Shown one piece after another: positions 67 through 31,207 of a DNA stretch of 36,990 nt. The DNA is taken from positions 1 to 36,990 of IMG/VR virus record IMGVR_UViG_3300049447_000017; one strand, written 5' to 3'. The DNA comes from a virus. The notes beneath the pieces were generated by a model. The model made no database searches and was not told the origin of the DNA. It saw nothing but the letters and a program-made list of their open reading frames with translations. Positions within the stretch are counted from its first letter, which is position 1. Each line of letters begins with the position of its first letter. A program made the position numbers and the translations under genes.

Positions 67-312
67 ATGGAAAATAGCAATAGTAGCGAGATGCCGTGGT
101 GGCAACATCTTCGTAAGCTGTTCCTCGCCTACCTTGCCTTCGCGATTGCCGGAGGAGTGCTTACGTTTTTTGTGTTTCTCGTAGGGAAGCCCGCAGTAGG
201 TTTTTTCTTGGGTCTAGCTATTGGATTGCCAGCCGGACTGTTCGGTGCTCGCTTTTTGTCGAATAGGGGATTTCCCGGGCGGCGTTTTCTGGGCCCCCTG
301 CTAAGTCGTTAA
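67..312 (+). CDS. small two-span membrane protein, unknown function
   Basis: An 81-residue protein preceded by a very strong Shine-Dalgarno sequence (AGAGGAGG, 66 or so, just before the ATG). Two hydrophobic stretches lie at about residues 17-40 and 42-60, separated by a short basic turn (GKP), so a two-pass inner-membrane hairpin is likely. The tail is short and basic. The C-terminal codons run through a copy of the 12-mer TTTCCCGGGCGG (271-282) that recurs in the att region further right. G+C is clearly lower than in the genes after 1040. I recognise no family. It may be host DNA beyond a prophage end or a phage gene next to attP. Confidence 0.6.
   Translation: MENSNSSEMPWWQHLRKLFLAYLAFAIAGGVLTFFVFLVGKPAVGFFLGLAIGLPAGLFGARFLSNRGFPGRRFLGPLLSR
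271..282 (+). repeat. single copy of the TTTCCCGGGCGG 12-mer
   Basis: This copy sits inside the end of the small membrane-protein gene, preceded by GGGGA. It matches the 12-mer that occurs as tandem pairs at 759-782 and 946-969. I noticed no copy in the rest of the window by eye. Confidence 0.6.
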
Positions 313-353: not shown

Positions 354-734
354 TCACGTAGGGGCTGTGCCGGCCACCTCCGCTAAGCGCAGCGCGCGCT
401 CCAGATCGGAAATCAGTTGGCGGCCGAGATCGCGCCGTTGCGCGCCTCTGGCCTGCTCCCACCGGGAGAACGTTTCGACGATGCCTCTGATGGCGTTGGT
501 CAGATCGAGATCGTTCGCCTCGGTCACCCCGGCCACCTGCCTGTCGCGAAGACCACGCTCGCGGCAAAGGCTCTCGATCTGCTCTCTGTTATATCGTTCG
601 CCATTCGGCCCGTCCAAGCGGGTCGTCGTCTTACTGGCAACAACGAGCGCATCCTCGATGGACTCAAATTCTTTGGTCCAGAACACGGGCGTCATATCTG
701 GTTGGGTCGTTAGGAAAAAGAGCTTCCACTTCAT
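354..734 (-). CDS. hypothetical protein, 126 aa
   Basis: I place the start at the ATG at 734 (MKWKLFFLTT), which has an AGAAGG ribosome site about ten bases upstream. The open frame continues up to 791, but that extra part is a proline/glycine/lysine string made by the tandem 12-mer repeat and is probably not translated. The protein is mixed alpha/beta in character, with a charged C-terminal half (SRWEQARGAQRRDLGRQLIS) likely to be helical. No family recognised. It lies on the strand opposite its neighbours, in the low-G+C stretch, and may be a host gene downstream of the tRNA or an attP-flanking phage gene. Confidence 0.5.
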   Translation of the reverse strand: MKWKLFFLTTQPDMTPVFWTKEFESIEDALVVASKTTTRLDGPNGERYNREQIESLCRERGLRDRQVAGVTEANDLDLTNAIRGIVETFSRWEQARGAQRRDLGRQLISDLERALRLAEVAGTAPT

Positions 735-753
735 CGGTTTTGGCCTTCTGGTT

Positions 754-788: not shown

Positions 789-819
789 CACAGCGGTGTT
801 GCTAAGTCATTGATCTGGA

Positions 820-866
820 TGGTGCTGCCGGCACGGATCGAACATGCGACCTCCTCCTTACCAAGG
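820..866 (-). other. tRNA-Thr(GGT) 3' remnant, probable attachment-site core
   Basis: Read on the minus strand, this holds everything of a tRNA from the end of the 5' anticodon stem to the encoded CCA. The loop TTGGTAA (858-864) carries anticodon GGT. It is followed by stem GGAGG, a five-base variable loop AGGTC, a perfect T-arm GCATG/TTCGATC/CGTGC (831-847), the acceptor strand CGGCAGC (824-830) and ACCA. The 5' strand of the anticodon stem is degraded (TCCCC opposite GGAGG), and no D-arm or 5' acceptor follows to the right, so this is not a functional tRNA. Such 3' tRNA pieces are the usual identity core of phages that integrate into tRNA genes. The orientation would put host DNA at low coordinates and phage at high coordinates if this is a prophage end. 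Confidence 0.8.
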
Positions 867-3848: not shown

Positions 3849-4066
3849 CCTGTTATGGCTTCGTGTTGGCGCCGTGCTTCGGCTGCAACAACCCCTTCAC
3901 CTTCAACCCGATGCTGGTGCCGAGCGTCACGGTCGAGGGGACGCGGCGCCCGATCTGTCAGTCGTGTGTCACGCGGGTCAATCCGTCGCGGAAGAAGAAC
4001 GGCCTGGAGCCGATCGTGCCGCTGCCTGGCGCCTATGAGGTCTTCGAGGACGGGGAGCTTGCGTGA
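3845..4066 (+). CDS. small zinc-ribbon-like protein, 73 aa
   Basis: Begins MTCYGFVLAPCFGCNNPFTF. Cysteine pairs CFGC (residues 11-14) and CQSC (40-43) are spaced like the two knuckles of a zinc ribbon, with TFNPMLVPSVTV between them as the beta part. The sequence NPSRKKNG after the second pair is basic. Small phage zinc ribbons of this type often bind nucleic acid or proteins; the target cannot be read from the sequence. The start overlaps the preceding stop and the stop overlaps the next start, so it is part of the coupled operon. Confidence 0.7.
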   Translation: MTCYGFVLAPCFGCNNPFTFNPMLVPSVTVEGTRRPICQSCVTRVNPSRKKNGLEPIVPLPGAYEVFEDGELA

Positions 4067-4626
4067 TGCGTCAATGCGGCGACTGTCAGCTCTGTTGCAA
4101 GCTCCTGCCGATGCACGACGGCGCGACCGTCGCCGGCCGCAAGATGAAGGGCTCGATCGACAAGCCGGCGGGCGCGCGCTGTCCGTATCAGCGCCATCAC
4201 GTCGGCTGCACCATCTATGCGCGCCGGCCGTACTGCTGCCAGGTCTGGAATTGCCGCTGGCTGGTCAATGACGACACCGCCGATCTGCCGCGGCCGGATC
4301 GGTGCCACTACGTCATCGACATCATGCCGGACATGATCCGCATGGTGCCGAACGACGGCAGCCCGGCCAAGGATGTCATGTGCATCCAAGTGTGGGTCGA
4401 CCCGGACTATCGCGACGCCCATCGTGATCCGGCCTTGCGCCGCTACCTCGCCCGCCGCGCCGAGAAAGAGCACATGCCCGCCATCATCCGCTGGAACGAG
4501 GGCCTCGGCATGGTGCTGTTCGCCCCGAGCTTGAGCGAGAACGGCGAATGGAATGAGCGGGTGAGCCAGGTGTCGCCGGACTTCAAGGGGCTACACGAGC
4601 GGCTTGAGGAGGGCTTGCGGCGATGA
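4066..4626 (+). CDS. YkgJ-like cysteine-cluster protein
   Basis: A 186-residue protein from the ATG at 4066 (TGATG junction with the previous stop; an in-frame GTG at 4063 is possible). The N-terminus has the hallmark CGDCQLCCKLLP, followed by CPYQ, then CTIYARRPYCCQVWNC. This is the eight-cysteine pattern of the YkgJ/UPF0153 family, thought to bind zinc or an iron-sulfur cluster. The family's biochemical role is not settled; the name refers to the cysteine pattern only. The C-terminal 100 residues are a phage-type extension with a second strand-rich region (DMIRMVPNDGSPAKDVMCIQ). Similar genes occur in many tailed phages. Confidence 0.8.
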   Translation: MRQCGDCQLCCKLLPMHDGATVAGRKMKGSIDKPAGARCPYQRHHVGCTIYARRPYCCQVWNCRWLVNDDTADLPRPDRCHYVIDIMPDMIRMVPNDGSPAKDVMCIQVWVDPDYRDAHRDPALRRYLARRAEKEHMPAIIRWNEGLGMVLFAPSLSENGEWNERVSQVSPDFKGLHERLEEGLRR

Positions 4627-5100: not shown

Positions 5101-5450
5101 ACTTCGATCTCGTCCGCCCGTGCGGCGACTGTCCGTTCCGATCTGACAAGCGGGCCTACCTGCAGCCCGAGCGCGTGCGAGAAATCCTCGGCGGCGGCAA
5201 GGGCCGGCAGCATTGGCCGGCGTGCTCGTTCCCCTGCCACAAGACGATCATCTATCACGGCCACCGCGCCACCATCCCGCCGACCGCGCAGCAATGCGCG
5301 GGCGTGATGATCATCCTGCATCGTGAGCGCCGCTGGAACGACGCGATGCAGATCGCGCAGCGCCTTGGACTATGGGACCCGGGCCGGCTCGATCTCAACG
5401 CGCCGGTGCATGAGAGCACACAGGCCGCGATCGAGGCACAGACATGGTGA
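5097..5450 (+). CDS. DUF6283-like cysteine motif protein
   Basis: A 117-residue protein from GTG 5097, overlapping the preceding stop. The N-terminus has the motif RPCGDCPFRSD, then PERVREIL, a central FPCHKT and QQCAGVMIILHR. The order CxxCPFR, CH, CAG is what I know from a phage family of unknown function (DUF6283). The four conserved Cys/His positions probably form a metal or iron-sulfur site. No enzymatic activity can be inferred. The assignment is by motif memory and should be treated as likely, not certain. Confidence 0.65.
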   Translation: MNFDLVRPCGDCPFRSDKRAYLQPERVREILGGGKGRQHWPACSFPCHKTIIYHGHRATIPPTAQQCAGVMIILHRERRWNDAMQIAQRLGLWDPGRLDLNAPVHESTQAAIEAQTW

Positions 5451-13979: not shown

Positions 13980-14399
13980 CTAGGAGCCACCCGAGATGCC
14001 GCCCGAGACCGATTGCGCGAGCTTGCGCAGCACCTCGATGCGCCCGCGGAATTGCGTGAGCACCTTGTCGCCGACTTCGACCGTCAGCTCGTCGACATAG
14101 AAGCCGACCGGCAGCGGTCCGCTTTTCTGCGCGGGAACGGTGATGAAACACTCGCCGGCAATGAGGTCGCCGCTCACATCCTCGGTGAGCGCGATGCCGT
14201 TACCGACGGTCAATTCGAGCACGTTGACGTTGGCCGAATTGTTAAGCCGCCAGATGATCACGGCGCCGGCAAGGTTGATCTTGTTGCCGTCGCCATCCTC
14301 GACGCTCGCCGCGATCTCCCAGGTGTCGCCGGCATAGAATTGCTGCGGCGGGTGTGCGGTCACCTCGCCGGGATGGAGCTGGAGGAAGGCGGTGGTCAT
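13980..14399 (-). CDS. BppU-like baseplate/fibre protein A, 139 aa
   Basis: Beta-rich with the pattern FYAGDTWEIAASVEDGDGN, then GAVIIWRLNNSANVNVLELTV, FITVPAQKSGPLPVGFYVDE and LTQFRGRIEVL. This resembles the N-terminal domain of BppU-type upper-baseplate proteins: a binding strand, 'GD' turn, residues linking strands, and a final 'G.i.v'. A second protein of the same kind lies at 23410-23796, so the two are probably paralogues with different partners. Its start overlaps the preceding gene's stop (ATGA) and it ends flush with the next start. Confidence 0.6.
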   Translation of the reverse strand: MTTAFLQLHPGEVTAHPPQQFYAGDTWEIAASVEDGDGNKINLAGAVIIWRLNNSANVNVLELTVGNGIALTEDVSGDLIAGECFITVPAQKSGPLPVGFYVDELTVEVGDKVLTQFRGRIEVLRKLAQSVSGGISGGS

Positions 14400-16810
14400 T
14401 GGCCTCTACCCTTTCCTGCGCGGCCGGCGATGGCGGCCCGGCCACTCTTGCCGACCGTCCGCGGCGGGCCGCTTCGCGTGTGGCGCAAGCGGTGGTCGAC
14501 GAAGTGCAGCAACGGCCGCCCGAGCACGGGCGCGCCGACGATGAGCGCCATCCCGCCCACCTCCGGGGTGCCCAGCGCAGGCGAGCCCGTGGCGAGGCCG
14601 CTGGCTGCGAAAACGTGCTTCTGCCCTGTCAGGGGAGCGCCCAGCGCCGGGGACGCAACGGTGAGCCCACCGGTGGCGAGTGCGAACTGGCGGGTGAACA
14701 CCGGAGTCCCGAGCACCGGCGACCCGGTCGCCAGGTTGGTCGCGGTCAGGACGTGCTTCTGCCCGAGCACCGCCGGACCAAGGACCGGCGAGCCAAGAGC
14801 GGGCGGCACCGCCACCCACACGCCGACCACGGTAAACAGCGGCGTGCCAAGGACGGGGGACCCGACAGTCTTGCCGGCGGCCACCGGCGAGAGCAGGCTC
14901 GGCGTCCCCAGAATGGGCGACCCGACAGTCTTGCCGGCGGCCACCGGCGACAGCACGTTCGGCGTCCCTAGAACGGGCGACCCGACAGTCTTGCCGGCGG
15001 CCACCGGCGACAGCACGTTCGGCGTCCCTAGAACGGGCGACCCGACGGTGAGATTCGTGGCCTTGGTGTTGACGAGGTTCGGCGTGCCGATGACCGGCGA
15101 GCCGGTCGCCAGGTTCGTCCCCACGAACACATGCGCCTGGGTGATCGCGGGTGCGCCAAGAACGGGCGAGCCAACGGCGAGGTTGGTCGCCGCGAGCGGG
15201 ACCACGATCGTGAGCGTCGCGGGGCCGAGGACCGGCGAGCCAACGGTGAGGTTGGCGGCCTTGGTGTTGACCAGGTTCGGCGCGCCGAGAACAGGCGAGC
15301 CGGTCGCCAGGTTGGCGGCCTGGGTGTTGATGAGGTTCGGCGCGCCGATGACGGGCGACGAGACGGTGAGCGCGGTGGCGGTGAGCGCGGCGGGACCGAC
15401 GGCATCGGGCGCACCGATCGCTCCTTCGCCAACGAAAGAGCTTCCCGATCCGATAACAATCCCGGGCCCGATCGTATCGGCAACAACAATCGTAGTTCGG
15501 AGCACGACAGCGATGAGCGCGCCGTCGTCGACCTGATCGAGCGCGGTAATGCCGACAATCGTGTTGCCGGTTGGATCGCCGGTCGCCCACGCACCGTCTG
15601 ACGCGCTACCAGTGTAGCGGGCAAGCTCAGAAAGCTCGGTGAGGTTCGACCAGGTAGTGACCGTGCCTTCGACGTTGCCGAAGAACGGCGCCCACGCGAC
15701 GATCTTGTCGCCAGTCTGCGCCGTCAACGATGGCAGAGTCCACGGCAGGGTGCCCGCTGACTCGTTTGTGAAATCGGAGTCACGCGCGGGGCTCGTGGGA
15801 TCGACGTTGCCCCAGAACGTAACTGAGATCAGCAGCGGCCATGTGCCGTCTGGAGTCGTGATATTCCATTTGAACGTGCCAGCCCCGATATCGGGGTTGC
15901 CTAACCAGCACAGGACGCCTTGCCAAGCGGAGGCGTTGTTGTCGCCGGCTTGGAAGCCCATGGCCGTGTCCACGCCACCTTTGGTGAACGTGTACGAACC
16001 CGAGGAAAACCGGCCGGATACGCCCGGCGAGTTACTCAACCCAACGACAATGCACGTCGTGCCGGCCGGGACGGTGATGGCCTGCGAACCGGTGGCGGTA
16101 ACGGGATTAGGCCCTTCGATGCGTAGGACCGAGCCAACCTGGAAGATACCTAGATTCGCTTTGATCTCGATCGCGGCTTGGGCGACACCTGCAAGAGCAA
16201 CGCCCACAACCAGATCGTTGAAGGAAGTCGATGTCGATATCGAACCAGTGCGCGACTGAGTTTGAACGCCAAGATCGGGACTCGATGCAAATCGACTCGA
16301 CCAGCCGGTGCCGGTCGTGATCGTGTTGCCGACGCCGTCGGCCAACCCCGCGCTCAAGACTTCTGAGGTCGTTGCCGGGGCCGCGTCTAGCGTCGTGGTG
16401 AATGGCGAGCTGCCAGTGGCGTCGATTCCTGAACTCTTCGCTCCGACCGGACTAACAGGATCATGGCCGATGTAGTTAAAGGCGTGCAGGATATAGCGGT
16501 AGATATTGTCGGAACCGGAGTCGACCGTCAGCGTCATGCTGGCGCCGACTCCATTAACCGGCGCCGTGTACCACGCGACAGTGTCCGCGCCGTCGTTAAG
16601 CGACTCGGCGATATTTCGCCGCGTCCAAGTCAGCCCCCCACCCGAGAGCGTCAGATTAGCCGCGACGGCAGTGTTGGCCGTGTTCTCAACAAAGACCGCG
16701 ACAGCGAGAAGAGAGTTGGTAGCAGGGGTGAACGCTGTCGTCGTAAAAGCGCCGGTCCCAAAGTTGGCGCTGGAACCAAACGCTCCAATATCAGTCCGGA
16801 TAAGCGCCAT
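14396..16810 (-). CDS. large fibre/adhesin with 14 GSPVLGxP-type repeats
   Basis: An 804-residue protein; the start overlaps the preceding stop (TAATG). Residues 1-490 look like two beta-sandwich regions with Ig or jelly-roll character (for example ATNSLLAVAVFVENTANTA and WNITTPDGTWPLLISVTFWG). Residues 500-765 hold 14 copies of a 15-22-residue unit built around GSPVLG[TAP]P (variants SSPVIGAP, GSPILGTP, ASPALGAP, GAPVLGRP). Three adjacent copies are nearly identical at the DNA level. The end, GRPLLHFVDHRLRHT, is shared with the 93-residue protein at 18289-18570. This is most likely a surface-exposed tail fibre or adhesin with a variable number of stalk repeats. There is no known enzyme domain. 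Confidence 0.75.
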   Translation of the reverse strand: MALIRTDIGAFGSSANFGTGAFTTTAFTPATNSLLAVAVFVENTANTAVAANLTLSGGGLTWTRRNIAESLNDGADTVAWYTAPVNGVGASMTLTVDSGSDNIYRYILHAFNYIGHDPVSPVGAKSSGIDATGSSPFTTTLDAAPATTSEVLSAGLADGVGNTITTGTGWSSRFASSPDLGVQTQSRTGSISTSTSFNDLVVGVALAGVAQAAIEIKANLGIFQVGSVLRIEGPNPVTATGSQAITVPAGTTCIVVGLSNSPGVSGRFSSGSYTFTKGGVDTAMGFQAGDNNASAWQGVLCWLGNPDIGAGTFKWNITTPDGTWPLLISVTFWGNVDPTSPARDSDFTNESAGTLPWTLPSLTAQTGDKIVAWAPFFGNVEGTVTTWSNLTELSELARYTGSASDGAWATGDPTGNTIVGITALDQVDDGALIAVVLRTTIVVADTIGPGIVIGSGSSFVGEGAIGAPDAVGPAALTATALTVSSPVIGAPNLINTQAANLATGSPVLGAPNLVNTKAANLTVGSPVLGPATLTIVVPLAATNLAVGSPVLGAPAITQAHVFVGTNLATGSPVIGTPNLVNTKATNLTVGSPVLGTPNVLSPVAAGKTVGSPVLGTPNVLSPVAAGKTVGSPILGTPSLLSPVAAGKTVGSPVLGTPLFTVVGVWVAVPPALGSPVLGPAVLGQKHVLTATNLATGSPVLGTPVFTRQFALATGGLTVASPALGAPLTGQKHVFAASGLATGSPALGTPEVGGMALIVGAPVLGRPLLHFVDHRLRHTRSGPPRTVGKSGRAAIAGRAGKGRGQ
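14861..15040. repeat. three 60-bp tandem repeats inside the fibre gene
   Basis: Period exactly 60 bases (20 codons). The copies start at 14861, 14921 and 14981. The second and third are identical base for base; the first differs at a few positions. They code for the SPVLGTPNVLSPVAAGKTVG unit. Identity of two copies shows a recent duplication by slippage or unequal exchange. Other repeat copies left and right are divergent. Confidence 0.85.
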
Positions 16811-17289: not shown

Positions 17290-18225
17290 TTAGCTCCAAC
17301 GCCCTTGCGAGACCGCGTTCACATCACCGATCCGTTCAAAAATCAGATACGAACCGATAGCTAGAACCGAAGCCGCCGCCACAGCCATCGTCGTTGAGGG
17401 GATCAGCGTCCCACCTGTCGTCACCTCGAAGGTGCCATTGATCAGAACTTGCAAAGCAGCATTGACCACACCCGTCACGATCGAAGCTGGAGAGGTGGAC
17501 GTTACCATTGTGCTGCCGCTCTTAGCCGCCGCGGTGCCTGTCGCTCCATCAATACCAACAGCGTCCCACAGCCAAGACCCCACCGTAGCCGTGCCAGCAC
17601 CGAGCAGATTAATGAGTCGGTTACTGGCTGCCACGTTTTCCATTGCGCTGAAGCTCAAGAGACCTTTCACTCGGTACGTGCCAGTTGGCAACGTCAACGT
17701 GCCGCCGGCGGGCGAGGTGAAGATCGCTTGCGAGGATGTGTTTGACGTGTATGTGCGCGTCGCGTCCGCGCGGATGTATGCCGGATCGGGCGGACGGATC
17801 ACCCGAAGGTCGGTGATTTGGTTCGTCGCGATCGTCGTGTCGGCCGCGGGGACGTAGACCACCGCAAGCGCCACGTCGTTGGCCGTCAATGCCGGCGGCT
17901 TGGGAGTGGCGCCAGGCGTGCCGGCGCGCACCGCGATTGCACCCGCGCTCGTGATCACCACGATGTCGAGACGTGGGTTCGTCGCGTCGGCCGTCGTGAT
18001 AGTGCCGTTCGCACCGGTGACGTCGAACCACCCGCGATTAGAACACGCGACGCCGGCTGCGACCGCCACCGTCATGTTCGGCGAGCCTTGCGCCGTCACC
18101 GCAAGGCCGCTGATCACATGATCAATCCCCTGTAGCGCATCGATCAGGACGTCGAGATACTCCTGAAAGAGGATGCTCTGCAGGTCGTTCGCGCCTTCGC
18201 CTTTGTCGGGCAGACTAAAGGGCAT
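17290..18225 (-). CDS. tail-fibre-like protein, 311 aa
   Basis: The ATG at 18225 has GGAGAGC upstream. The N-terminal 110 residues (EYLDVLIDALQGIDHVISGL, then AVAAGVACSNRGWFDVTGANG and RLDIVVITSAGAIAVRAGT) follow the pattern of tail-fibre attachment regions that open with a helix and a 'v.aG.a...g' beta segment. The rest is beta-rich with a repeated 'tsasaiftspaGgtltLptGtYrv' kind of jelly-roll core and a hydrophobic strand near the end (TMAVAAASVLAIGSYLIF). It may bind a host receptor directly. No catalytic motif seen. Confidence 0.65.
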   Translation of the reverse strand: MPFSLPDKGEGANDLQSILFQEYLDVLIDALQGIDHVISGLAVTAQGSPNMTVAVAAGVACSNRGWFDVTGANGTITTADATNPRLDIVVITSAGAIAVRAGTPGATPKPPALTANDVALAVVYVPAADTTIATNQITDLRVIRPPDPAYIRADATRTYTSNTSSQAIFTSPAGGTLTLPTGTYRVKGLLSFSAMENVAASNRLINLLGAGTATVGSWLWDAVGIDGATGTAAAKSGSTMVTSTSPASIVTGVVNAALQVLINGTFEVTTGGTLIPSTTMAVAAASVLAIGSYLIFERIGDVNAVSQGRWS

Positions 18226-21906: not shown

Positions 21907-22055
21907 GCTGGCCCATCCTGAAACAGCGCCGGCAGCGCGGCGGCGACCTGGCGCGCGCGCAGCTCGGCTTCGGGCACCTCGATCGGGAAGCGCGTCTTGG
22001 CCCGGCCGGCGAGGATAGCCGCGGCGATGCGGGCGATGAACGCGTCCTTGCTCAT
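21903..22055 (-). CDS. small helical protein, 50 aa
   Basis: A tightly coupled small gene: its ATG overlaps the fibre gene's stop and its stop overlaps the next ATG. Sequence: MSKDAFIARIAAAILAGRA, then KTRFPIEVPEAELRARQVAA and LPALFQDGPA. It is mostly helical, with a Pro-rich centre. No function assigned. Very short proteins between fibre genes are often fibre-assembly helpers, but this one shows no direct evidence. Confidence 0.5.
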   Translation of the reverse strand: MSKDAFIARIAAAILAGRAKTRFPIEVPEAELRARQVAAALPALFQDGPA

Positions 22056-23413
22056 GGCGTCGCCCGCACGCCCTTGAAGGCCATGCCGATGCGGACCTCG
22101 CTGCCCGATCGCACGTGGTAGTAGAGCGAGCTTGTCCGGTTCGCGACCAAATCGATCGCGGGCGCGAGACCACCGTCGAAGGTGTAGCCGGCCGCGAAGG
22201 CGAGCGTCTTGGCGCCCGCACCGGGTTCCGTCACGTCGATGAAGCCCGACTGCCCGACCTTGGGATTGGTCGGGAAGCCGAGGATGCGATTCGCGGTAAG
22301 CGTCACCGAGAAATTGAAGCCGGCATTGAAATCGACGGCGATCGTCGCCGCATCGGTCAACGGGACATAGGCTTGCGCGTCGAAGGCAACCTTCGGGGTG
22401 AGGAATTTCTGATCGGCGCCGGAACGCAAATCGCCGATCGCCGCCTTGAGCGTCGCATCGACAAGACCCCAGGTGACCACATTGAGCAGCGCCAGGCTGC
22501 CGAGCCCGAGATGCGCGCGCAGCGTCGTCACGTTGAAGGGCGCATAGACCGTCGAGAGCGCAGCGAGAAGGCTCTGCACGAAGGCGGTGGTCGCGATCTG
22601 GGTGCTGTTGGTGCCGCCGCTTGGCGTTGGCGCGGTTGGCGTGCCGGTGAACGCCGGGCTCGCCAGCGGCGCTACGTTCGCGCGGTTGACTTTGACCTCG
22701 AAGGTGACGGGATCGATGATGATGCCGTCGCCGCCGAAATAGAGCCCGATCTGCGCCTGCGCTGGCGGCATCAGAAGCTCGACCGCGTAGGCTTGCAGCG
22801 TCATGGTCTCGGTGCCGTTGGCGAGCTGCGCGGTGATGCAAAGGTCGGTGCTGGCCGCGGCCGTATCGACCGACGAGGTGACGACCGCGCCGGTCGACGT
22901 GCCATAGGAGTCGAGATCGGTCGGCCCACCGACCTGGCTGTTGGCTGCGCCGCGGTTCTCGATCTCGACCACCGAGCGCACGACGCCGACGGTGGTGACG
23001 ACCCGCGACTGATAGATCGTGCCAGACATCCCGCCGAAGCGGGTCCGGATCGTCTTGTTGTTGGCCGAGCTGGTGACCGTCCAGAGCGTGGTGATCCGGA
23101 GCCGACCTTGGGCGCCCATGTAGCCGGCCGGGATGGCGATGGTGGCGAGCGCGGTCTCGGTGGTGTTGCCGGTTTTCGAGGCCAGGATGGCATTCGCCGC
23201 GAGCACCTTATTCGTGGTGTCGCCCGGGATGCCGCGCGTGCCGGTGAGCCCGGTGAAGCCCTGGAGGCCCTGCGGCCCTGGCCCGCCTGGCACCCCCGGC
23301 CGGCCAGCCGGGCCTTGCGCTGCCGCCTTGAGGGTGGCCGGCTGAGCGATGTCATTGCGCACCAATTCCAGGCGCGGCTTGCCGGCGGTCAATGAAAAGC
23401 GCGCTCCGCTCAT
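22052..23413 (-). CDS. collagen-like tail fibre, 453 aa
   Basis: Starts at ATG 23413. After a 32-residue head comes a collagen-like Gly-X-Y run of about ten triplets (GPAGRPGVPGGPGPQGLQG and onward to GIPG, residues 34-64). Beta-rich domains follow. Near residue 270 lies SPAFTGTPTAPTPSGGTN followed by STQIATTAFV, the well-known repeat that links phage tail-fibre segments. The C-terminal part (SLYYHVRSGSEVRIGMAFKG) is like a fibre end. It is most probably a trimeric side or tip fibre that binds a host surface molecule. The ends overlap both neighbours by four bases. Confidence 0.8.
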   Translation of the reverse strand: MSGARFSLTAGKPRLELVRNDIAQPATLKAAAQGPAGRPGVPGGPGPQGLQGFTGLTGTRGIPGDTTNKVLAANAILASKTGNTTETALATIAIPAGYMGAQGRLRITTLWTVTSSANNKTIRTRFGGMSGTIYQSRVVTTVGVVRSVVEIENRGAANSQVGGPTDLDSYGTSTGAVVTSSVDTAAASTDLCITAQLANGTETMTLQAYAVELLMPPAQAQIGLYFGGDGIIIDPVTFEVKVNRANVAPLASPAFTGTPTAPTPSGGTNSTQIATTAFVQSLLAALSTVYAPFNVTTLRAHLGLGSLALLNVVTWGLVDATLKAAIGDLRSGADQKFLTPKVAFDAQAYVPLTDAATIAVDFNAGFNFSVTLTANRILGFPTNPKVGQSGFIDVTEPGAGAKTLAFAAGYTFDGGLAPAIDLVANRTSSLYYHVRSGSEVRIGMAFKGVRATP

Positions 23414-23796
23414 CGGCTCACTCCCTCGACCACGATGACCTTGCCCTCCCACATCCGCTCGGCGAAGCCGTTAGGATCGGTGCGCACGAGGTCGCCGAAG
23501 TAGTCGCCCGCGTGCAGCCGCTTCAATTTCGCTCGCGTGATGGTGACGGTGAACTCCCCGCCAGCGGCGTTGGTGATCTCGATGCCGTCGCCGGTCTCGA
23601 CCGTGACGACCGCGGTATTGTCGGCCTCGGTCTTGCGGATTTGCAGCTTGAAGGTCGAGTCGGTGATGTCGAGCGGTTGGATGTTCTCGGGATCGCCGCT
23701 CACCGGCGTGTAGTCGACGAGATACTCCAGCGGGACCGACCAGTCCTCGTTCTTGGCAATATTCATCGTGCCGGAGAAAAACGCGGGGCCGGGCAT
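23410..23796 (-). CDS. BppU-like baseplate/fibre protein B, 128 aa
   Basis: Starts at ATG 23796. Pattern: FSGTMNIAKNEDWSVPLEYL, then IQPLDITDSTFKLQIRKTEA, VTVETGDGIEITNAAGGEFT and LHAGDYFGDLVRTDPNG. This is the BppU N-terminal type: a 'W.vpl.y' opening, 'lDitg.....q.R', 'gdGi.i...GG.f.v' and 'aG.Y..Dl'. It differs in detail from the 13980-14399 protein but has the same layout. It lies directly between a tail-fibre gene and the collagen-like fibre, so it probably joins them to the baseplate. Confidence 0.65.
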   Translation of the reverse strand: MPGPAFFSGTMNIAKNEDWSVPLEYLVDYTPVSGDPENIQPLDITDSTFKLQIRKTEADNTAVVTVETGDGIEITNAAGGEFTVTITRAKLKRLHAGDYFGDLVRTDPNGFAERMWEGKVIVVEGVSR

Positions 23797-23804
23797 GTGC
23801 GCCT

Positions 23805-24977
23805 CTACCAGATGAGGATCGCGGCACCGGACTCGCCGGTGCATTCGATGTAGTCGTCAAAGACGCCATCGGACGACTGGCCGTCCCCGCCACCGCGGCC
23901 ATAGATGCCATTGGAGCGATTGATCACGCCGCCGGTCCCCACTCCCGGTCGGCCAGGGGACGGGTCGGTGTCGCCGGGAGGATCGGGGAAGCAACCACGG
24001 CCGCCCGTGCACGAGCAGACCGCCGGCCCGGTGGCCGGCCCGAAGGTCGATTGCTGGCCAAAGGTGTTCTTCCAGTTGACCGCGTTATAGAGGATGTTGC
24101 CGGTCGAGGGTGTGACGGGTGGCGGAGCGCCGGCACCGATCGCAACTCGCATCAGCGTTCCGGGCACGACCGGGAACATGCCCTCGACGTAGCCGCCATC
24201 GCCGCCTTTGATGAAGTTGCCCTCGCAGCCGATGCCGCCGCCGGTGAAGTTAAAGAGGCTGACGCAGTTGCTGATCGTGCCCGAGCCACTCGCCGACCAC
24301 TCGACGCCGGGGCCGCCGCCTGCCCACAAGCGCAGCCACACCTTGAGCACGCCGGCCGGGACGGGCCAGTCGAAGGTGCCGGCGACCTCCCAGGCGGCGA
24401 TGCCCTGGAATCCATTGAATTGGTTCGTGATGTAGTTGACGACGTTGCCGCCGCCGCCGGAGACTGGCGGCGAGCCGCCGGAGACCGCCGCCTGGATCGC
24501 GGCGGCGATGTTCGGGTTGAGCAGCTGAAACTTGTTGTCGACATAGACCAGCTTGGCGATGCCGCCAGCCGACATGTCGCCGGCTGTCAGCGGCGAGCCG
24601 TCGACGCGCACGATGTCGCGGAAACCCGGTCCGCAATCGATTTCAGACTCGCCGGTGTTGGTGTGCGCGACCTTGATGCGGACGACGAAGCCGTTGTTAT
24701 AGGCGTCGAGCGACGGATCGAACGAGCAAACGAGATGGTTGGTCGTGCCGGTGTCGATTGCGAAGTTGACCTTTTGGGTCCGGATCGCCTTGAGCAGCTG
24801 GTGGAGGTCGGCCTCGCTCGGAGCGAGCCCCGACTTCTCGATCATATGCACGATCTCGCGCATCGGATGCTCGAACGCAGCCGCAGGCGGAATCGAGCCG
24901 GCGAGGCCAATCGACGGATTGCCGTTGATGTAGGGCGCGTCGAGATCGGGGATGCCGTAAGGTTGGATATAACGCAC
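23805..24977 (-). CDS. tail-fibre/collar protein, 390 aa
   Basis: I place the start at GTG 24977, which has GGAGGA nine or ten bases upstream; the ORF is open to 25088 but lacks another supported start. The protein opens RYIQPYGIPDLDAPYINGNP, then SIPPAAAFEHPMREIVHMIE and LAPSEADLHQLLKAIR. This pattern is standard for the N-terminal domain of tail-fibre proteins of Rhizobiales-type phages. The middle is beta-rich, and the last 200 residues are glycine-rich with several short Gly loops and cysteines (CSCTGGRGC). It lies immediately downstream of the gp48-like gene, in the gp49 position of Mu, and so should attach to the baseplate. Confidence 0.75.
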   Translation of the reverse strand: MRYIQPYGIPDLDAPYINGNPSIGLAGSIPPAAAFEHPMREIVHMIEKSGLAPSEADLHQLLKAIRTQKVNFAIDTGTTNHLVCSFDPSLDAYNNGFVVRIKVAHTNTGESEIDCGPGFRDIVRVDGSPLTAGDMSAGGIAKLVYVDNKFQLLNPNIAAAIQAAVSGGSPPVSGGGGNVVNYITNQFNGFQGIAAWEVAGTFDWPVPAGVLKVWLRLWAGGGPGVEWSASGSGTISNCVSLFNFTGGGIGCEGNFIKGGDGGYVEGMFPVVPGTLMRVAIGAGAPPPVTPSTGNILYNAVNWKNTFGQQSTFGPATGPAVCSCTGGRGCFPDPPGDTDPSPGRPGVGTGGVINRSNGIYGRGGGDGQSSDGVFDDYIECTGESGAAILIW

Positions 24978-24994
24978 GACTCGCGTCCTCCGTT

Positions 24995-25777
24995 TTAAGG
25001 TGTGCCCTGCAGTGGCCCGCCAAAGCGCAGATATGTGTAATCGAACACAAGCTGGGTCTGCGCCGGCTTCCACCGGTTCAGCAGGCATTCAAGATCGTCG
25101 GCGAGCCCGATGCGCAGATGCGGATCGATTCCCGCCTGCCCGCTGCTCGCGCGAAACCAGGTGAGCCGGGCGAGCGCGACGCGCACCGACCAATAGAAGC
25201 GCATCTCCGGCGCGCCGATTTCCCAGCGATAGTCGAAGTTGTCGCCGGAGACCGGCGGCCTCGCATTGACCGTCCCGCCGTCCGGATCGCCCGAGACCGG
25301 CTGCCTTCCCTCCGGATAGAAAATCTCGCCCCACTCGCCGCGGGTGTCGCCGACGCGCGAGAGCCCGGCCATGAACGGCGACCATTCCTTGATCGTGATC
25401 TCGTGCCCGACCTGATGCATGACGTCGATGAAGAAGGCGCGGCTTTGCGCGCCGATCATCGTCATCTTCTGCACCAAGATGCGCTGCCGATCGGCAACGC
25501 TGATCGGCTCCAGGAAGCACGGATCGGGCAGCCCCCAGGCGCGCTCCCAGTCTTCCAGCAGCTCGATGGTCGAGCGCGGGTCGCTCTCGCGCTCCAGGAG
25601 GTCGGCGGCGCGGCCGTCGACATAGCCCCAGATTTGCGCGAGCCCGCGCACCACTTTCATGAGCAGCCGCTCGCGCTCGCGCGGCCAGGCCGGGCCGGTC
25701 GGCAACAGATTGCCGAGCGCCTCGGCGTAGTCGTCGCCGCCGCGGCGGACGTGACGATTGTGCAAGGTCGTCGTCAT
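24995..25777 (-). CDS. Mu gp48-like / DUF2313 baseplate protein
   Basis: A 260-residue product from ATG 25777, in an ATGA overlap with gp47/J. N-terminal segments YAEALGNLLPTGPAWPRE and LLERESDPRSTIELLEDWER, then LGLPDPC with a downstream RQRILVQKMTMIGAQSRAFF, form the DUF2313 (YmfQ/gp48) pattern: 'LLP.G.aw..e' and 'ELL..WE...GLP'. This family closes the wedge and connects the baseplate to fibres. The C-terminal 100 residues are less conserved and probably face the fibre (RPPVSGDNFDYRWEIGAP). Role inferred from Mu order and family pattern. Confidence 0.8.
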   Translation of the reverse strand: MTTTLHNRHVRRGGDDYAEALGNLLPTGPAWPRERERLLMKVVRGLAQIWGYVDGRAADLLERESDPRSTIELLEDWERAWGLPDPCFLEPISVADRQRILVQKMTMIGAQSRAFFIDVMHQVGHEITIKEWSPFMAGLSRVGDTRGEWGEIFYPEGRQPVSGDPDGGTVNARPPVSGDNFDYRWEIGAPEMRFYWSVRVALARLTWFRASSGQAGIDPHLRIGLADDLECLLNRWKPAQTQLVFDYTYLRFGGPLQGTP

Positions 25778-26847
25778 AGGTAGTCGATGCTTCCAAGCAT
25801 TGGCAGATGACCGGGAGACGGCATCACCGTATTCTCGAAGGTGAGATCGTGGTGATCCTCGCCGGTGGCGATCGAGATCGCTTCGCCGACCCAGCTGGCA
25901 TAGATCGTCTGCCCGGGCTTGGCCTTCTCGTCGAACATCGTGAGAAGCGCAAACGCGATGCGCTGGCGCACGGTCGCCGTGTCGATGGTCAGATTCGAGA
26001 TCGCGACATCGACGAAGAACGGCAGCGGCGCGACCACGAAACAGTCCTTGACCGCAACCGGGCGGACCTTGTCGAGATAGGAGGTCACCGCCGTGATGTC
26101 GTCGTCGTTCGGCAGGCCGTTGTCCTGCCAGCGCAGATCGTCGCACATGAATCGAATGGTCACGGTGCCGATGCCCATCTCGTTGGGCGCGCACCAGGCG
26201 CGGGTGACGCCGGGCACGGCAAGCGCCCATAACTCGTAGTCGGTCTTGCAGCCGCCCATCGGCGGCTCCTGGATGCGCTTCAAAACGCGCATGCGCAGAT
26301 CGGCGTCGTTCTCCTCGTCGGAGCCGCCGGTCAGCTCGGCGACCGTCGCGCTCGTGTCGAGGCCGACGATCGGAATGGCCGCGGCCACCGTCTCGCCGGT
26401 GTCGAGATTGCCGGCGGCGCCGCCGTCGAGCGCGCGCACCGCAACCGGCGTTACGTCGGCGCCGAGGATCACCTCTTCGAGGGTCTCATACTCGACATTG
26501 TTGCCGCCCGCGAACTTGGTGCCGGCCGGGATCACGGTGGTGGCGGTGCCGGTGAGTTCGATCGAGCCCTCGGCGAAGGTCGCGCCCTTGCGGCCCTTGC
26601 TGGCATCGGAATTGAGCAACCAGATTTGCCCGTGCCGGTCGAGCCATTCCTGCTCGGCGGTGTCGGGCAGCAATTGCAAGGCAAGCCAGTCGATATAGCG
26701 CAGCGTCAGATGCGCGAGCGCGCCCATCGCGTCCGACATCACACGCAGGACGCTGTTGGCGACCATCGCCGCGCCCGAGAGCGCGGTCGAGACGTTGTCG
26801 CGCGTCAGCTCGCGCACCTGCCGCAAGGTCGGGGTAGTCCAGGGCAT
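25774..26847 (-). CDS. baseplate J family protein (Mu gp47-like)
   Basis: Starts at ATG 26847 with GAGGACG upstream. The 357-residue protein has the baseplate-J pattern: RYIDWLALQLLPDTAEQEWLDRHGQ near residue 50, then an 'l.G.....v.iPaGt.f....g..Y.T' region (TGTATTVIPAGTKFAG), AAGNLDTGETV, GGSDEENDADLRMRVLKRIQEPP, and a final TMFDEKAKPGQTIYASWVGEA. These proteins form the wedge triangles of contractile baseplates. It lies between gp46 and gp48 as in Mu. Confidence 0.9.
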   Translation of the reverse strand: MPWTTPTLRQVRELTRDNVSTALSGAAMVANSVLRVMSDAMGALAHLTLRYIDWLALQLLPDTAEQEWLDRHGQIWLLNSDASKGRKGATFAEGSIELTGTATTVIPAGTKFAGGNNVEYETLEEVILGADVTPVAVRALDGGAAGNLDTGETVAAAIPIVGLDTSATVAELTGGSDEENDADLRMRVLKRIQEPPMGGCKTDYELWALAVPGVTRAWCAPNEMGIGTVTIRFMCDDLRWQDNGLPNDDDITAVTSYLDKVRPVAVKDCFVVAPLPFFVDVAISNLTIDTATVRQRIAFALLTMFDEKAKPGQTIYASWVGEAISIATGEDHHDLTFENTVMPSPGHLPMLGSIDYL

Positions 26848-26854
26848 CACGTCC

Positions 26855-27403
26855 TCATGTGGTCGGTACGGCCATGTTGCTGGTATTGAGCGCGTGCTCG
26901 ATGGCCGCTTCACGCGCCTGGTCTTGCCAGAAGAGTTGATAACGCAGCTCCACCGCCACCAACGGGCCGCGATAGAGCACCGCCATCACATCGATGCGCT
27001 CGCGCGTGACCAGCTCGGCGACGACGTCGACCCGCGATGCGATGCGGCGCTCGATGAAGGGGCGCAGCGCCTCGCGTACATAGAACTCGGCGCGCGCGAT
27101 GGTGGCGCCCTCGATCGATTCCGGCCCGGTGATCTTGGCCCGGGTGAGGAGCCAGGTGCGCGAGCCGATCGGCCAGCCGCCCCAGATCGCCTCGGCGTCG
27201 AAATCGCCCCACCAGCCGCGGCGGTCATTACTGTCAAGGTCGGGCAACACGTCGTCGACCTGCGCGAGCCGGTCGGTGCCGAGCGCCACGATCACCGCGG
27301 TCGCGAGCTGCTGCGTTTCGTCGAGCATGCCGAGCGGCTTGAGAAACCAGTCGAGCGTTATCTCGAACGGCGTCTTGATCTGGACGATGCGGATGTCGGT
27401 CAT
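26855..27403 (-). CDS. Mu gp46-like baseplate protein, 182 aa
   Basis: Starts at ATG 27403, coupled by ATGA to the 40-residue membrane microprotein. The pattern DQLAQVDDVLPDLDSNDRRGWWGD is not present exactly, but RLAQVDDVLPDLDSNDRRGW followed by GSRTWLL and AEFYVREALRPFI matches the gp46 family ('...D.RGwwgD.......GSrlWLL.r.K...........a..ya.eaL.....'). This is a baseplate wedge component, W-like in T4 terms. Order relative to gp45 and gp47 is as in Mu, apart from the inserted FTR1 and microprotein genes upstream. No ribosome site is evident, so coupling is likely required. Confidence 0.85.
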   Translation of the reverse strand: MTDIRIVQIKTPFEITLDWFLKPLGMLDETQQLATAVIVALGTDRLAQVDDVLPDLDSNDRRGWWGDFDAEAIWGGWPIGSRTWLLTRAKITGPESIEGATIARAEFYVREALRPFIERRIASRVDVVAELVTRERIDVMAVLYRGPLVAVELRYQLFWQDQAREAAIEHALNTSNMAVPTT

Positions 27404-27522
27404 GGGGTGCCCAACACGATGAGGACATAACCGGCGAGGAGGAGGCAGAGGCCGGTGATGAACAAGGCTATGCGCTCGGGGCGCGACAGCTTGCGCCCGC
27501 TCGGCGTGCGCGGATCGATCAC
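27400..27522 (-). CDS. single-span membrane microprotein, 40 aa, between FTR1 and gp46
   Basis: GTG at 27522 overlaps the FTR1 stop (GTGA) and the stop overlaps the gp46 ATG (ATGA). After a basic N-terminus (DPRTPSGRKLSRPERIA) comes LFITGLCLLLAGYVLIVLG, one transmembrane helix, then TP. It may be a companion of the permease or only a translational bridge. The double overlap means it is a designed part of the operon, not chance. Confidence 0.65.
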   Translation of the reverse strand: MIDPRTPSGRKLSRPERIALFITGLCLLLAGYVLIVLGTP

Positions 27523-28118
27523 AGCGCCTCCCAGACGAAGAAACCGGCCTGGAAGATCAAGAAGACTGACGAGAACGCGAAGATCAGGCGGATCGGCAAT
27601 TGCGCGGCGACCAGGCGCAACAAGAAAAAGACCCCGATGAGCGCCAGGGCGGCGAGCGCGATGCCGGTGAAGATGGCGCTCGTCCAGCCGCCCGCGTTGA
27701 TGCTGAGCGCTTCGGTGAACAAGAGAAGCTCGAATGCCTCGCGCGCCACCACCAGAAACGTGAGCATGAAGAGCGCCACCGGTCGACCGCCGGTTGAAAG
27801 CACGCGCCGCTTGATGACGTCTTCCTTCTTGGTACCCAGAAAGCGGAAGAGGAGAAGCCCGCGCGCGACATAGAGCATGAGCGCCGCTGCGACCAGGAGG
27901 ATCGCCTTGTCGGCGAATTCGCTGTGCAACCCCGCGAGCCCGACGGACAGCCCTAGAACGATATTAATCGAAACGCCGGCCACGGCCCCGCTGTGGATCG
28001 GCAAGAGGCTCGCCGCCGGGTTGGTCTGCCGCGCGACCCTCGCCACGGTGATGACGATCAGCAAAACCTCGATGCCTTCGCGCAGGAAGATCACAAATGC
28101 GGCCACGACGATTTCCAT
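27519..28118 (-). CDS. FTR1/EfeU-type iron permease homologue
   Basis: A 199-residue membrane protein starting at ATG 28118, one base after the stop of the upstream gene. It has about six or seven hydrophobic helices. The two glutamate motifs of the FTR1 family are present: FLREGIEVLL (residues 11-20, REGIE) and VAREAFELLL (124-133, REAFE), in helices 1 and 4. In yeast Ftr1p and bacterial EfeU these REXXE motifs carry ferric iron through the membrane. The length is shorter than bacterial EfeU (about 270), mainly at the C-terminus. It lacks a partner EfeO/EfeB gene here. Iron transport is inferred from the motif; its place in a tail operon is unexpected. Confidence 0.85.
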   Translation of the reverse strand: MEIVVAAFVIFLREGIEVLLIVITVARVARQTNPAASLLPIHSGAVAGVSINIVLGLSVGLAGLHSEFADKAILLVAAALMLYVARGLLLFRFLGTKKEDVIKRRVLSTGGRPVALFMLTFLVVAREAFELLLFTEALSINAGGWTSAIFTGIALAALALIGVFFLLRLVAAQLPIRLIFAFSSVFLIFQAGFFVWEAL

Positions 28119-28119
28119 G

Positions 28120-30213
28120 CTACCTCGACAGGCAGATGCCTTCTGGTGAGGCAAACGCCGGATGAACCCATTTGTTTTCCGCGAGAAGCTGCTCGGCGCG
28201 CGAACCATCGGCGAAGATGCGATGCGCGATCCAGAGCCCCGGCATTGAATTTGCGAACGCATAGGGGACGACCCGCGGCAATTGCCGGCTGCGTTCGGCG
28301 AGATCGCGCACCGCCGCCGCGCGCAGCGTGACCAGGGACCGGTAGGTCATGGCGTCGTGCTCGTCGGCAACGTCTTCCTCGGCGGCCTCGAAGGCCACCG
28401 CGATGCGCTTGAGCGCAAAGAGCGCGTCGTCGCGGCTCTCGTAGGTGGTCGACGCCGTGAGCGCCGCCATCTGCACCAGGGTCAATTGCACGGTCAGGTG
28501 CGCCACCGCCTCGCCGGGGACGAACACCGGCATCTCTGCGAGCAGGCGCGCCCGCGCGGTCATGAAGCCCTCGAAGGTCGCGCCGGCCGCACGCGCCAGC
28601 GCCCAGGCTTCTGCCGCCTTGGGGCCGAGCGTGCCGTCGTTGATCAGGGTCTTGCCGTCCGCCCGGATGGCGCCGACGGCGCGGCGGAAGTCCCAGGCTG
28701 GCCGGCCGACCTGGCGCCCCGGCACCGCGCCGATGAGGGCATCGAGCGCCCGGTTGAGGATCGCGTCCGCTTCGGCGAGCTGCGACGAATGGGTCGGGAT
28801 CATCGCCCATGGGCCGAACGGATGCTTGAGACGCGGCCGTCCTATCTCCGGCGACGCGACCGCCACGCCCACGGCCCCGAAGCCGACCAGGCCGGGGATT
28901 TGGATGACCGGCGAACCGACCGTCAGGTTGGCCTTCAGGAGCGCGTGCTTCTGCGTGAACTCCGGAGACCCGATGTCGGGCGACCAGGACGGCATCAACG
29001 CGGTCAGATTGATCGAGTTCTTGGTGTAGGTCGGCGTTCCGAAGACCGGCGAGCCAACCGTCAGGCCGGTCGCAGTCAGCGCGACCGAGGACGACTCGGT
29101 CATCATGATCGGGCCGAAGGTGGCCGAGCCCGACGTGCCGCCGCGGATCACATAGTTGAGATCGTCGGTCGCCAGGAAGCTATCGTTGTTCGACGTGTCT
29201 TCGAACCAGCCGGTGCCAGTGATCGAGAGCTGCTGATTGGCGTCGGCGCCGTTCTTGCGAAGTCTGAGCGTGAACGCCGAGCCCATGCTGTACGACGAAA
29301 CATGCGCCCGCAGATTGCGCGCCTTGCCGGCGAAATGGTGCTTAATCTTCCATGGCGCTTCGGTCGTGGTCGGCGCGTGGGTGCCGAGTAGCGCCAAGAA
29401 ACGATCGGAGGCATTGAACGCGATCGCCCCGATGAGATGCGAGAAAATCTCGTTCTCGTTGGCGTCATAGTCGATGTGCGACGAAATCCAGAACTGCGTC
29501 GACGCAATCACGCTTTGGTTCGTCGTGCGAAGCGAGATGAGATCGCCATCGGCGAACGTGTCGGTGTGGCTGGTGTCCTCGAATGTGCCGGTGGTGTTGG
29601 CGGGGCATGTCGCGGTGATGTTGCCGTTGTTGACGTTCTTGCGAAGCGTCATCACCATCGAGCTGGTGCCGTCGCCGAAGACGTGAAACGCGACGTTCTT
29701 GATCGTGCCAGACGTGCGCATGAGCGCCTGGGCACTGGTCTCCGTGCTGCTTTGGTCCGTACCGGCGGCGCCGCCCGAGAGCGGGGAAAAGAACGTCCCT
29801 GTGTGCGGAAAGCAGAGCTGCGTCGCATAGGGCGAGTTGTGACCGCTCGATCCCTCCCAGACTGCTTTGAGCCAGTACCAGGTGGTTGTTCCGGTTTCAA
29901 CGTTCCGCGAACCGTGAAGGTCGCCAGCCGAGTAGCTGTCAGAGTGCGTCGTGTCGTAGACGATCTGCGCGGTGGTATCGGTGAAGCTGACCGTGAGATT
30001 GACCGGCGAACCGTTCTTGCGGTTCGTGTTCGATCGGCCGGTCCCGACGTTGTCCACCGAGCCGCCGAGATTCGACATCGTCCCGGCATTGCGCATCGTG
30101 ATTTGCGCAAAACCTTCGGTGACGAGACCGCCGAGGTCGCCCAAGTAATAAGTGAAGGCGGTCCCAGAAAACGGGCCTCCGGAATAGCCGCCGCCGATGA
30201 GTGCCTTGCCCAT
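28120..30213 (-). CDS. fibre-cassette fused to gp43 C-terminal part, 697 aa
   Basis: The N-terminal 360 residues are beta-rich, with a repeated 'F.DTS..D.f..gDl..l......s' element (TGTFEDTSHTDTFADGDLI and WFEDTSNNDSFLATDDLNY) as in some tail-surface proteins. Residues 375-450 carry degenerate GSPVFGTP, IGSPEF, GSPVIQIP and ASPEIGRP repeats, the motif of the large fibre at 14396. From about 460 to the end the sequence turns helical. It matches the C-terminal region of Mu gp43-type DNA-circularisation proteins: YESRDDALFALKRIAV, LRAAAVRDLAERSRQLPRVV, WIAHRIFADGSRAEQLLAEN and KWVHPAF. So the gene looks like a fibre cassette joined to the second half of gp43. It directly precedes the FTR1 gene. 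Confidence 0.7.
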   Translation of the reverse strand: MGKALIGGGYSGGPFSGTAFTYYLGDLGGLVTEGFAQITMRNAGTMSNLGGSVDNVGTGRSNTNRKNGSPVNLTVSFTDTTAQIVYDTTHSDSYSAGDLHGSRNVETGTTTWYWLKAVWEGSSGHNSPYATQLCFPHTGTFFSPLSGGAAGTDQSSTETSAQALMRTSGTIKNVAFHVFGDGTSSMVMTLRKNVNNGNITATCPANTTGTFEDTSHTDTFADGDLISLRTTNQSVIASTQFWISSHIDYDANENEIFSHLIGAIAFNASDRFLALLGTHAPTTTEAPWKIKHHFAGKARNLRAHVSSYSMGSAFTLRLRKNGADANQQLSITGTGWFEDTSNNDSFLATDDLNYVIRGGTSGSATFGPIMMTESSSVALTATGLTVGSPVFGTPTYTKNSINLTALMPSWSPDIGSPEFTQKHALLKANLTVGSPVIQIPGLVGFGAVGVAVASPEIGRPRLKHPFGPWAMIPTHSSQLAEADAILNRALDALIGAVPGRQVGRPAWDFRRAVGAIRADGKTLINDGTLGPKAAEAWALARAAGATFEGFMTARARLLAEMPVFVPGEAVAHLTVQLTLVQMAALTASTTYESRDDALFALKRIAVAFEAAEEDVADEHDAMTYRSLVTLRAAAVRDLAERSRQLPRVVPYAFANSMPGLWIAHRIFADGSRAEQLLAENKWVHPAFASPEGICLSR

Positions 30214-30216
30214 CGA

Positions 30217-30588
30217 TTATCCCTTCAAGACAACAAGCTCGGCCTGTTCATCAGAGGCGATCACTTCTCCCACGGGCACCTTTGGATTTGCGATCACCTC
30301 GTCGATCGCCTCCTTCGTCGCTCCTCTGATGACGAAGTTGTCCTGCGCGTCGTAGCTGACGCTCAGAGCCTCGCGATCGGCCCCGGCATCGACGAGCGCG
30401 CGCACCACCTCGTTCTTTTTTCGATTGTGCTTGAGCAATTGCTCGGCGAGCGCCGGCCCCGGAAGGTCCGCGTGCTTCTTGCACGTGCGCACCGCCACGA
30501 CATTGGTCAGCTGCTCGCCGACTGTCTCGAACTCGATGATGCAAGCACACGTATCCGGTGACCAGCGCGTGGCCATGGGCCGCTCCAT
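30217..30588 (-). CDS. hypothetical protein, 123 aa, Cys/His motif
   Basis: The start is ATG 30588 (TAATG junction) or ATG 30576, which has GGAG upstream. The protein begins RWSPDTCACIIEFETVG and has CKKHADLPG, giving Cys-x-Cys and Cys-x2-His pairs that could bind one metal. The rest is alpha/beta (EQLLKHNRKKNEVVRALVDA, VVALVDAGAD style). Genes with an 'RWSPDTC.C.iE' opening occur next to tail-fibre genes in phages of high-G+C hosts, but I do not know their role. It lies in the stretch that separates the two gp43 pieces. Confidence 0.6.
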   Translation of the reverse strand: MERPMATRWSPDTCACIIEFETVGEQLTNVVAVRTCKKHADLPGPALAEQLLKHNRKKNEVVRALVDAGADREALSVSYDAQDNFVIRGATKEAIDEVIANPKVPVGEVIASDEQAELVVLKG

Positions 30589-30674
30589 TAGTTGCGCCGA
30601 ATGAAATAGATAAAGGCACCGAGGACCACGACAGCCCCGAAGAGGAAGAGCACGAATTGCTGCGGCTCGCTCAT
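30588..30674 (-). CDS. single-span membrane microprotein, 28 aa
   Basis: ATG 30674 overlaps the stop of the gp43 N-terminal gene (ATGA) and the TAA overlaps the next ATG (TAATG). Sequence: MSEPQQFVLFLFGAVVVLGA, then FIYFIRRN. It is one hydrophobic helix with a basic C-terminal end. The tight overlaps on both sides suggest real translation. Together with the 40-residue protein at 27400 it is one of two membrane microproteins inside the tail operon. Confidence 0.6.
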   Translation of the reverse strand: MSEPQQFVLFLFGAVVVLGAFIYFIRRN

Positions 30675-31207
30675 GGCGTCAGCGTGCCGAAGCGCGCCAG
30701 CGTGTTGGCGAAGGAGGTGGCGCTTTGCGCGCTGGCCGCACTGACCGCGCTGTTGACCGCGCCGGTCGTGTTGGTGAACGCGATCTGGTTGGCCGGCCGG
30801 CCGTATTCAATGAAGCGCATCTCGACGGTGCAGTAGCCGCCGCGCTCGCGGTTCTCACTCATCGAGTAGCGTTCGCACACGACCATCAGCTCGGGCATGG
30901 TCGGATGGATCAGGAGGCCCGGGCCCTCCCGCTCCAGCGCGTCGCGCAGCCGATCGCGGCCGGTGCGGTAGTCCATCCCGAGCCGGCGATCGCCTTCGAT
31001 GAAGTAGCCGGTCAGGTCGAATTGAATCGTGCGCTTGCCCATGTCCTCGGCGTAGGGCTCGTCGCGCTTGGGATATTCGTGCATGGCGATGCGGCGGCCG
31101 GAGAGCCGCGCGCCGGTCTCGACATGGAACTGCGCATCGCGGAAGGTCGCGACCCGCAGCGCGAGCCGCCACTTGGCCGGCGAGCGTTCGCTGATCCAAG
31201 TGCCCAT
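30671..31207 (-). CDS. gp43-like DNA-circularisation protein, N-terminal part only
   Basis: A 178-residue product whose stop overlaps the next microprotein and whose start overlaps the gp45-like gene. It shows the DNA_circ_N pattern: FRDAQFHVETGARLSGRRIA, then MHEYPKRDEPYAEDMGKRTI, FDLTGYFIEGD, a basic DRLRDALEREGPGLLIHP and a final VEMRFIEYG. Normal family members are about 400-500 residues, with a C-terminal part that here appears in the 697-residue gene at 28120. The frame stops after a Ser/Ala-rich linker (ASAQSATSFANTLARFG). I read this as a split gene. It is still likely to fold as a baseplate-hub adaptor. Confidence 0.8.
   Translation of the reverse strand: MGTWISERSPAKWRLALRVATFRDAQFHVETGARLSGRRIAMHEYPKRDEPYAEDMGKRTIQFDLTGYFIEGDRRLGMDYRTGRDRLRDALEREGPGLLIHPTMPELMVVCERYSMSENRERGGYCTVEMRFIEYGRPANQIAFTNTTGAVNSAVSAASAQSATSFANTLARFGTLTP

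Follow-up and report, generated by a model that had tools for sequence, protein, structure and literature searches.

A tRNA-Thr(GGT) 3' Remnant Between Arm-Type Repeats as a Probable attP of a Contractile-Tailed Phage

Gene Content of the Record

The window, i.e., the whole stretch of DNA analysed, is 36,990 nt long and comprises positions 1 to 36,990 of IMG/VR virus record IMGVR_UViG_3300049447_000017. Contractile-tail genes (fibre, baseplate, hub, tape measure, and tube) lie on the minus strand at 22052-36041. A repressor-like gene with a Cro/C1-type HTH is found on the plus strand at 2228-2728 and has homologues in relatives that carry integrases. The first early ORF, 1040-1519, has no relatives in viral contigs; just upstream, at 989-1020, is a perfect inverted repeat, TGTGACTAGA / TCTAGTCACA, the 10-bp halves of which are separated by 12 nt and which is operator- or terminator-like. 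Two small ORFs lie to the left of the feature described below. ORF 67-312 (plus strand) has the look of a membrane protein by eye and no family match, and for ORF 354-737 (minus strand) no relative turned up among 393 Hyphomicrobiales genomes or among viral contigs and plasmids. The G+C content is 56-58% across 1-1000 and mostly 60-69% beyond, as the first-pass annotation had it in describing a change from low G+C on the left to high on the right.

The scanned ORFs of the record include no genes for the head or for packaging, apart from weak matches to virion proteins at 17290-18225. In a relative, G029, genes for capsid, head protease, portal, and terminase are found beyond the homologous tail region. 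Thus, the contig is a fragment.

The tRNA-Thr(GGT) Remnant

The minus strand from 866 to 820 reads CCTTGGTAAGGAGGAGGTCGCATGTTCGATCCGTGCCGGCAGCACCA. This segment covers about the last two thirds of a tRNA-Thr gene, from the anticodon loop through CCA, and the 5' half is absent. The T-arm (847-831) has all five pairs present. The other parts, read by eye, are as follows: the anticodon loop TTGGTAA at 864-858, with GGT at 862-860; the 3' strand of the anticodon stem at 857-853; the variable loop at 852-848; the 3' strand of the acceptor at 830-824; and A823 followed by CCA at 822-820. ARAGORN calls no complete tRNA anywhere in the window. Rfam, applied to 740-1040, gave chance matches alone, the fragment being internal; for a piece cut to 820-868, the Rfam tRNA model gave a 5'-truncated match (E 0.0096) of 20.6 bits, below the gathering score of 29. 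A scan for a T-arm, acceptor, and CCA had one match in the window and three places across all of the related-phage pieces, two of them beside integrases.

Host genomes contain the corresponding complete genes. A match to 796-880 is found in 103 of 150 Hyphomicrobiales genomes. Nearly all of these alignments begin at CCA itself or within a few bases of its outer side (query 21-25, window 816-820), most end about query 72 (window 867), and the similarity to host tRNA genes ends about the anticodon loop, 858-864. When the best 30 places were read through, almost every one was a complete tRNA-Thr(GGT) gene, GCTGCCGTAGCTCAG...CTCCCTTGGTAAGGGAGAGGTCG...CGGCAGCACCA. Thus, the minus-strand sequence, the paired T-arm, the truncated Rfam match, and the intact host homologues bear out the first-pass identification of a tRNA-Thr(GGT) 3' remnant without its 5' half.

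The annotation also proposed a search for a host tRNA-Thr ending in the same 47 bases. Homologous tRNA-Thr(GGT) genes do exist, the top identity to 820-866 in the sampled Hyphomicrobiales being 84%; a copy of the core with three or fewer mismatches is found in none of 397 Hyphomicrobiales genomes, and an exact 46-mer of the core is absent from the species genome collection and from viral contigs. Therefore, either the host is unsampled or the phage's tRNA copy has drifted. In addition, the phage A at position 41 would mispair with the anticodon stem of the sampled hosts, so that their tRNA would not be perfectly restored by integration.

Arm-Type Repeats and the Sequence Flanking CCA

Perfect 35-nt direct repeats bracket the remnant at 754-788 and 941-975, each with two 12-bp units. 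In the CCA-side array, two ACCGCCCGGGAA units are located on the minus strand at 783-772 and 771-760; in the anticodon-side array, they are at 970-959 and 958-947, again on the minus strand. Relative to the T-arm, the units lie at -123, -111, +64, and +76. At the level of sequence, arm-type repeats are present on either side of the core. Among the repeats listed, this pair is the only perfect direct repeat of at least 20 nt in the window outside a 60-nt tandem array in a tail ORF. The latter array, at 14859-15018, is within an 804-aa minus-strand ORF (14396-16810) among the tail genes.

The arm units are confined to the vicinity of the site, there being four exact units and one degenerate unit. 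The degenerate unit, GCCGCCCGGGAA at 283-272, is part of a second, degenerate copy of the arm unit and flank motif at 270-315, with TTAACGACTTAG at 312-301 and no tRNA remnant; this copy overlaps the end of ORF 67-312. The exact arm array has no match in viral contigs.

On the minus strand, CCA is followed by TCCAGA and then TCAATGACTTAGC; this flank, CCA-N6-TCAATGACTTA, fits the pattern CCA-N6-TCAANNNNTTA. The element TCAATGACTTAG, at 802-813 and 6 nt past CCA, is IHF-like (WATCAANNNNTTR), and we propose it as an H'-like bend site, its recognition by IHF being presumed. TCAANNNNTTR is the core of the IHF consensus, WATCAANNNNTTR. A λ-like H' IHF site would have this consensus between the attP core and the P' arm; in the window, gATCAATGACTTA, directly past the attP core, fits it by eye except at one position. 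An exact TCAATGACTTAGC is also found in a related phage record (L012, 19319) with no adjoining tRNA; an ARAGORN tmRNA call is about 0.9 kb away.

Integrase Genes and Related Phages

The first-pass annotation saw no integrase. That is indeed the case, as neither PF00589 nor PF00239 is detected in the 37 kb record, and tblastn with twelve integrases, divergent ones included, has no window match with E below 0.01.

Relatives were found via the baseplate gene at 25774-26913, which yielded 56 viral loci, several of them with homologues of the early genes at 1748-2164, 2228-2728, and 4063-4626. A cognate integrase gene, of which there is none in this incomplete record, is present in relatives G020, G029, and G030. 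In G020 and G029, it lies several kb to the left of the repressor-like gene. Most likely, the integrase gene of the window phage is located in the missing part of the genome.

G020, an IMG/VR record, is related in tail and early genes. Its integrase ORF (L132 1723-3024, PHROG integrase) ends just before a tRNA 3' remnant, the T-arm of which is at 3082. Direct arm repeats spaced by 12 bp lie on either side, with ACCACCGGAG at -101, -89, +112, +132, +144, and +153, parallel to the positions of the units in the window. G020 differs in that the remnant is tRNA-Pro by eye rather than tRNA-Thr, in that the tRNA runs the other way with respect to the early genes, in the adjacent integrase, and in the lack of a TCAANNNNTTA flank at +6. 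In G030, the tRNA remnant starts in the anticodon loop (CTCATAA), the integrase is just past the CCA side, and the flank is N6-TCAA..TTA, as in the window. The attP of Rhizobium phage phiU (AB004561) is annotated as a 'core sequence for lysogenization', with the integrase beside it. The phiU core is the 3' part of tRNA-Thr(GGT) from the same first base, CCTTGGTAAGG, and is 78.7% identical over 47 bases; in contrast to the window, the integrase adjoins the core on the anticodon side, the arm repeats differ, and there is no TCAATGACTTA flank. G020, G030, and phiU are separate cases of one layout.

The target of phage λ is different, being a non-tRNA site. In λ attP, arm-type sites flank the core, and bend sites separate the two (PMC4880445); at the level of sequence, the window, with its candidate bend site, has a similar arrangement. 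Two other systems are likened by description. In S. meliloti, tRNA-Thr(GGU) gene 010 is the target of nine elements, and the att sites include 23-47 bp of the tRNA 3' end plus a spacer of 6-17 bp (PMC11476347). The target tRNA and the spacer within the att site are alike; these elements are prophages and islands in known genomes, whereas the window would be a free attP, and the likeness is one of description. The Paracoccus prophage PD41, also of the Alphaproteobacteria, sits in tRNA-Thr(GGT) and has a tyrosine integrase, but it is annotated as a podovirus (PMC6536676).

In a close relative, G002, there is an apparently full-length tRNA-fMet among the structural genes (L162, about 5165-5241, minus strand). 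It was considered as a second remnant and dropped, since it reads as a full-length tRNA.

A Proposal for the Site and Its Alternatives

We suggest that 820-866 is very probably the attP identity core of a temperate phage with a contractile tail, the integration target of which is the 3' end of a tRNA-Thr(GGT) gene. The portion of the genome that the contig lacks would encode a tyrosine integrase, which would bind the 12-bp arm units at 754-788 and 941-975, as well as weak core sites near the anticodon loop. A protein that bends DNA, most probably IHF, would bind TCAATGACTTA at 803-813 and fold the arms onto the core. Strand exchange is expected in the anticodon loop, with TTGGTAA (858-864, minus strand), within CCTT-GGT-AAGG, as the likely overlap region, so that the 5' half of the host tRNA would be joined to the 3' half from the phage. 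In the presumed lysogen, a complete tRNA would be remade at one prophage end, and the displaced 3' piece would remain at the other. In this class of site, the shared att sequence extends beyond CCA, to about 801. The site predicts the chromosomal target, i.e., tRNA-Thr GGT, and the kind of integrase that is missing. It also predicts a host tRNA in which the 5' strand of the anticodon stem is able to pair with GGAGG.

A free attP is favoured because identical 35-nt arm arrays flank the core and because G020 shows the same arrangement. The tRNA segment is truncated where the intact host tRNA-Thr(GGT) genes continue, and the flank motif is found at either end of islands as well as next to tRNA remnants and integrases (see below); both count for this reading. 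Counted against it are the lack of an integrase, within 820 bp to the left or elsewhere in the record, when one is adjacent in G020, G030, and phiU; the lack of a host tRNA within three mismatches; the direction of the tRNA with respect to the early genes, which is the reverse of that in G020; and the mispairing A at position 41. The absence of an integrase means little because the contig is incomplete. A defective or satellite element that has kept attP, lost its own integrase, and relies on the enzyme of another element would account for the lack of an integrase in 37 kb. This is quite improbable: the contig also lacks the head and packaging genes that G029 has past the homologous tail region, and the integrases of G020 and G029 lie several kb to the left of the repressor-like gene.

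The first-pass annotation entertained host DNA to the left of 820. The window would then contain a prophage end (attR), with the host chromosome lying left of about 800, phage DNA on the right, and the displaced tRNA 3' piece between them. The lower G+C at 1-1000 agrees with this, the tRNA orientation is possible for it, and the flank motif is also present at the attR ends of islands. A prophage end is nonetheless unlikely because both arm arrays are present: rather than host sequence and an arm-free CCA side, the supposed host side contains both a perfect copy of the right arm array (754-788) and the fifth unit (272-283). In G020, too, arm repeats lie on both sides. ORF 354-737 is without a host match, although an unsampled host would give the same result. 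Least likely is a decayed tRNA carried by the phage, a pseudogene without a role in integration. Phages do carry tRNA genes, as does G002 with its apparent full tRNA-fMet, but the clean truncation in the anticodon loop, the intact T-arm and CCA, the arm repeats on either side, and the matching arrangement next to the integrases of G020 and G030 all argue against decay. The free attP reading thus agrees with the annotation in taking 820-866 as the identity segment of an attachment site and a tRNA-Thr(GGT) gene as the target, and with its remark that the flanking repeats fit a free attP, the repeats being real and arrayed on either side of the core.

A Possible Signature of tRNA Attachment Sites

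The flank motif is widespread. In 24 of 289 Alphaproteobacteria, TCAATGACTTAG is found after the CCA end of a tRNA, against 0 in the control. When the motif is relaxed inside to TCAANNNNTTR, matches are found in 171 of 199 Hyphomicrobiales genomes. Among the matches listed, there are 109 tRNA-like sites; exactly 6 nt separate CCA and TCAA in 85 of them, and TGAC is the commonest inner tetramer (23/109). When the spacing is fixed at 6 and the ending at TTA, 94 of 200 Pseudomonadota genomes have CCA-N6-TCAANNNNTTA after a tRNA 3' end, and none has a match to the reversed-pattern control.

By eye, about ten of 44 motif loci are remnants that break off close to the anticodon loop. Within 1.5 kb of 10 of the 44, there is an ORF or fragment of a tyrosine integrase, including L104, recognised weakly by Pfam, and L144, recognised solely by similarity to other integrases. 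An integrase homologue is detected by tblastn at 8 of the 44 motif loci versus 0 of 29 motif-less tRNA-Thr loci, a comparison that is biased, as the queries came partly from motif loci.

In genome G126, the motif is found at both ends of two probable islands, each with one intact tRNA and one remnant (tRNA-Asp and tRNA-Val). Bounded by the intact tRNA and the 3' remnant, they occupy about 483.6-528.2 kb of G126:C1 and about 41.7-62.5 kb of G126:C6, and the first has a divergent integrase, barely recognised by Pfam. The presence of the motif at both island ends led us to set aside the notion that TCAATGACTTAG is host sequence lying left of a prophage end.

We give about even chances to the proposal that CCA-N6-TCAANNNNTTA is a phylum-wide, position-locked signature of Pseudomonadota tRNA attachment sites, common to integrases that share only about 22-43% identity, and that it probably serves as a bend site of the IHF type at a set position from the end of the tRNA. 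Alternatively, it is possible that the motif is a native feature of tRNA trailers, unrelated to integration. If the proposal is true, the motif would record, behind ordinary tRNA genes, where elements have integrated or are integrated now, and would be an easily read tag for locating the ends of elements that follow tRNA genes when genomes are fragmentary. It would also raise the question of why a single bend site, at a constant spacing from the tRNA, has been kept by integrases that are only distantly related. The literature searched held no description of the flank motif, with none for TCAATGACTTAG and nothing relevant by title for CAATGACTTA. The kind of site is itself well known; the fixed-distance flank signature may be new.

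Finally, three copies of a tRNA 3' end plus motif, 20-27 kb apart and on one strand, are found in each of G272:C6 (649368, 673441, 698332) and G750:C1 (2622239, 2642682, 2670174), looking like tandem integrated elements.
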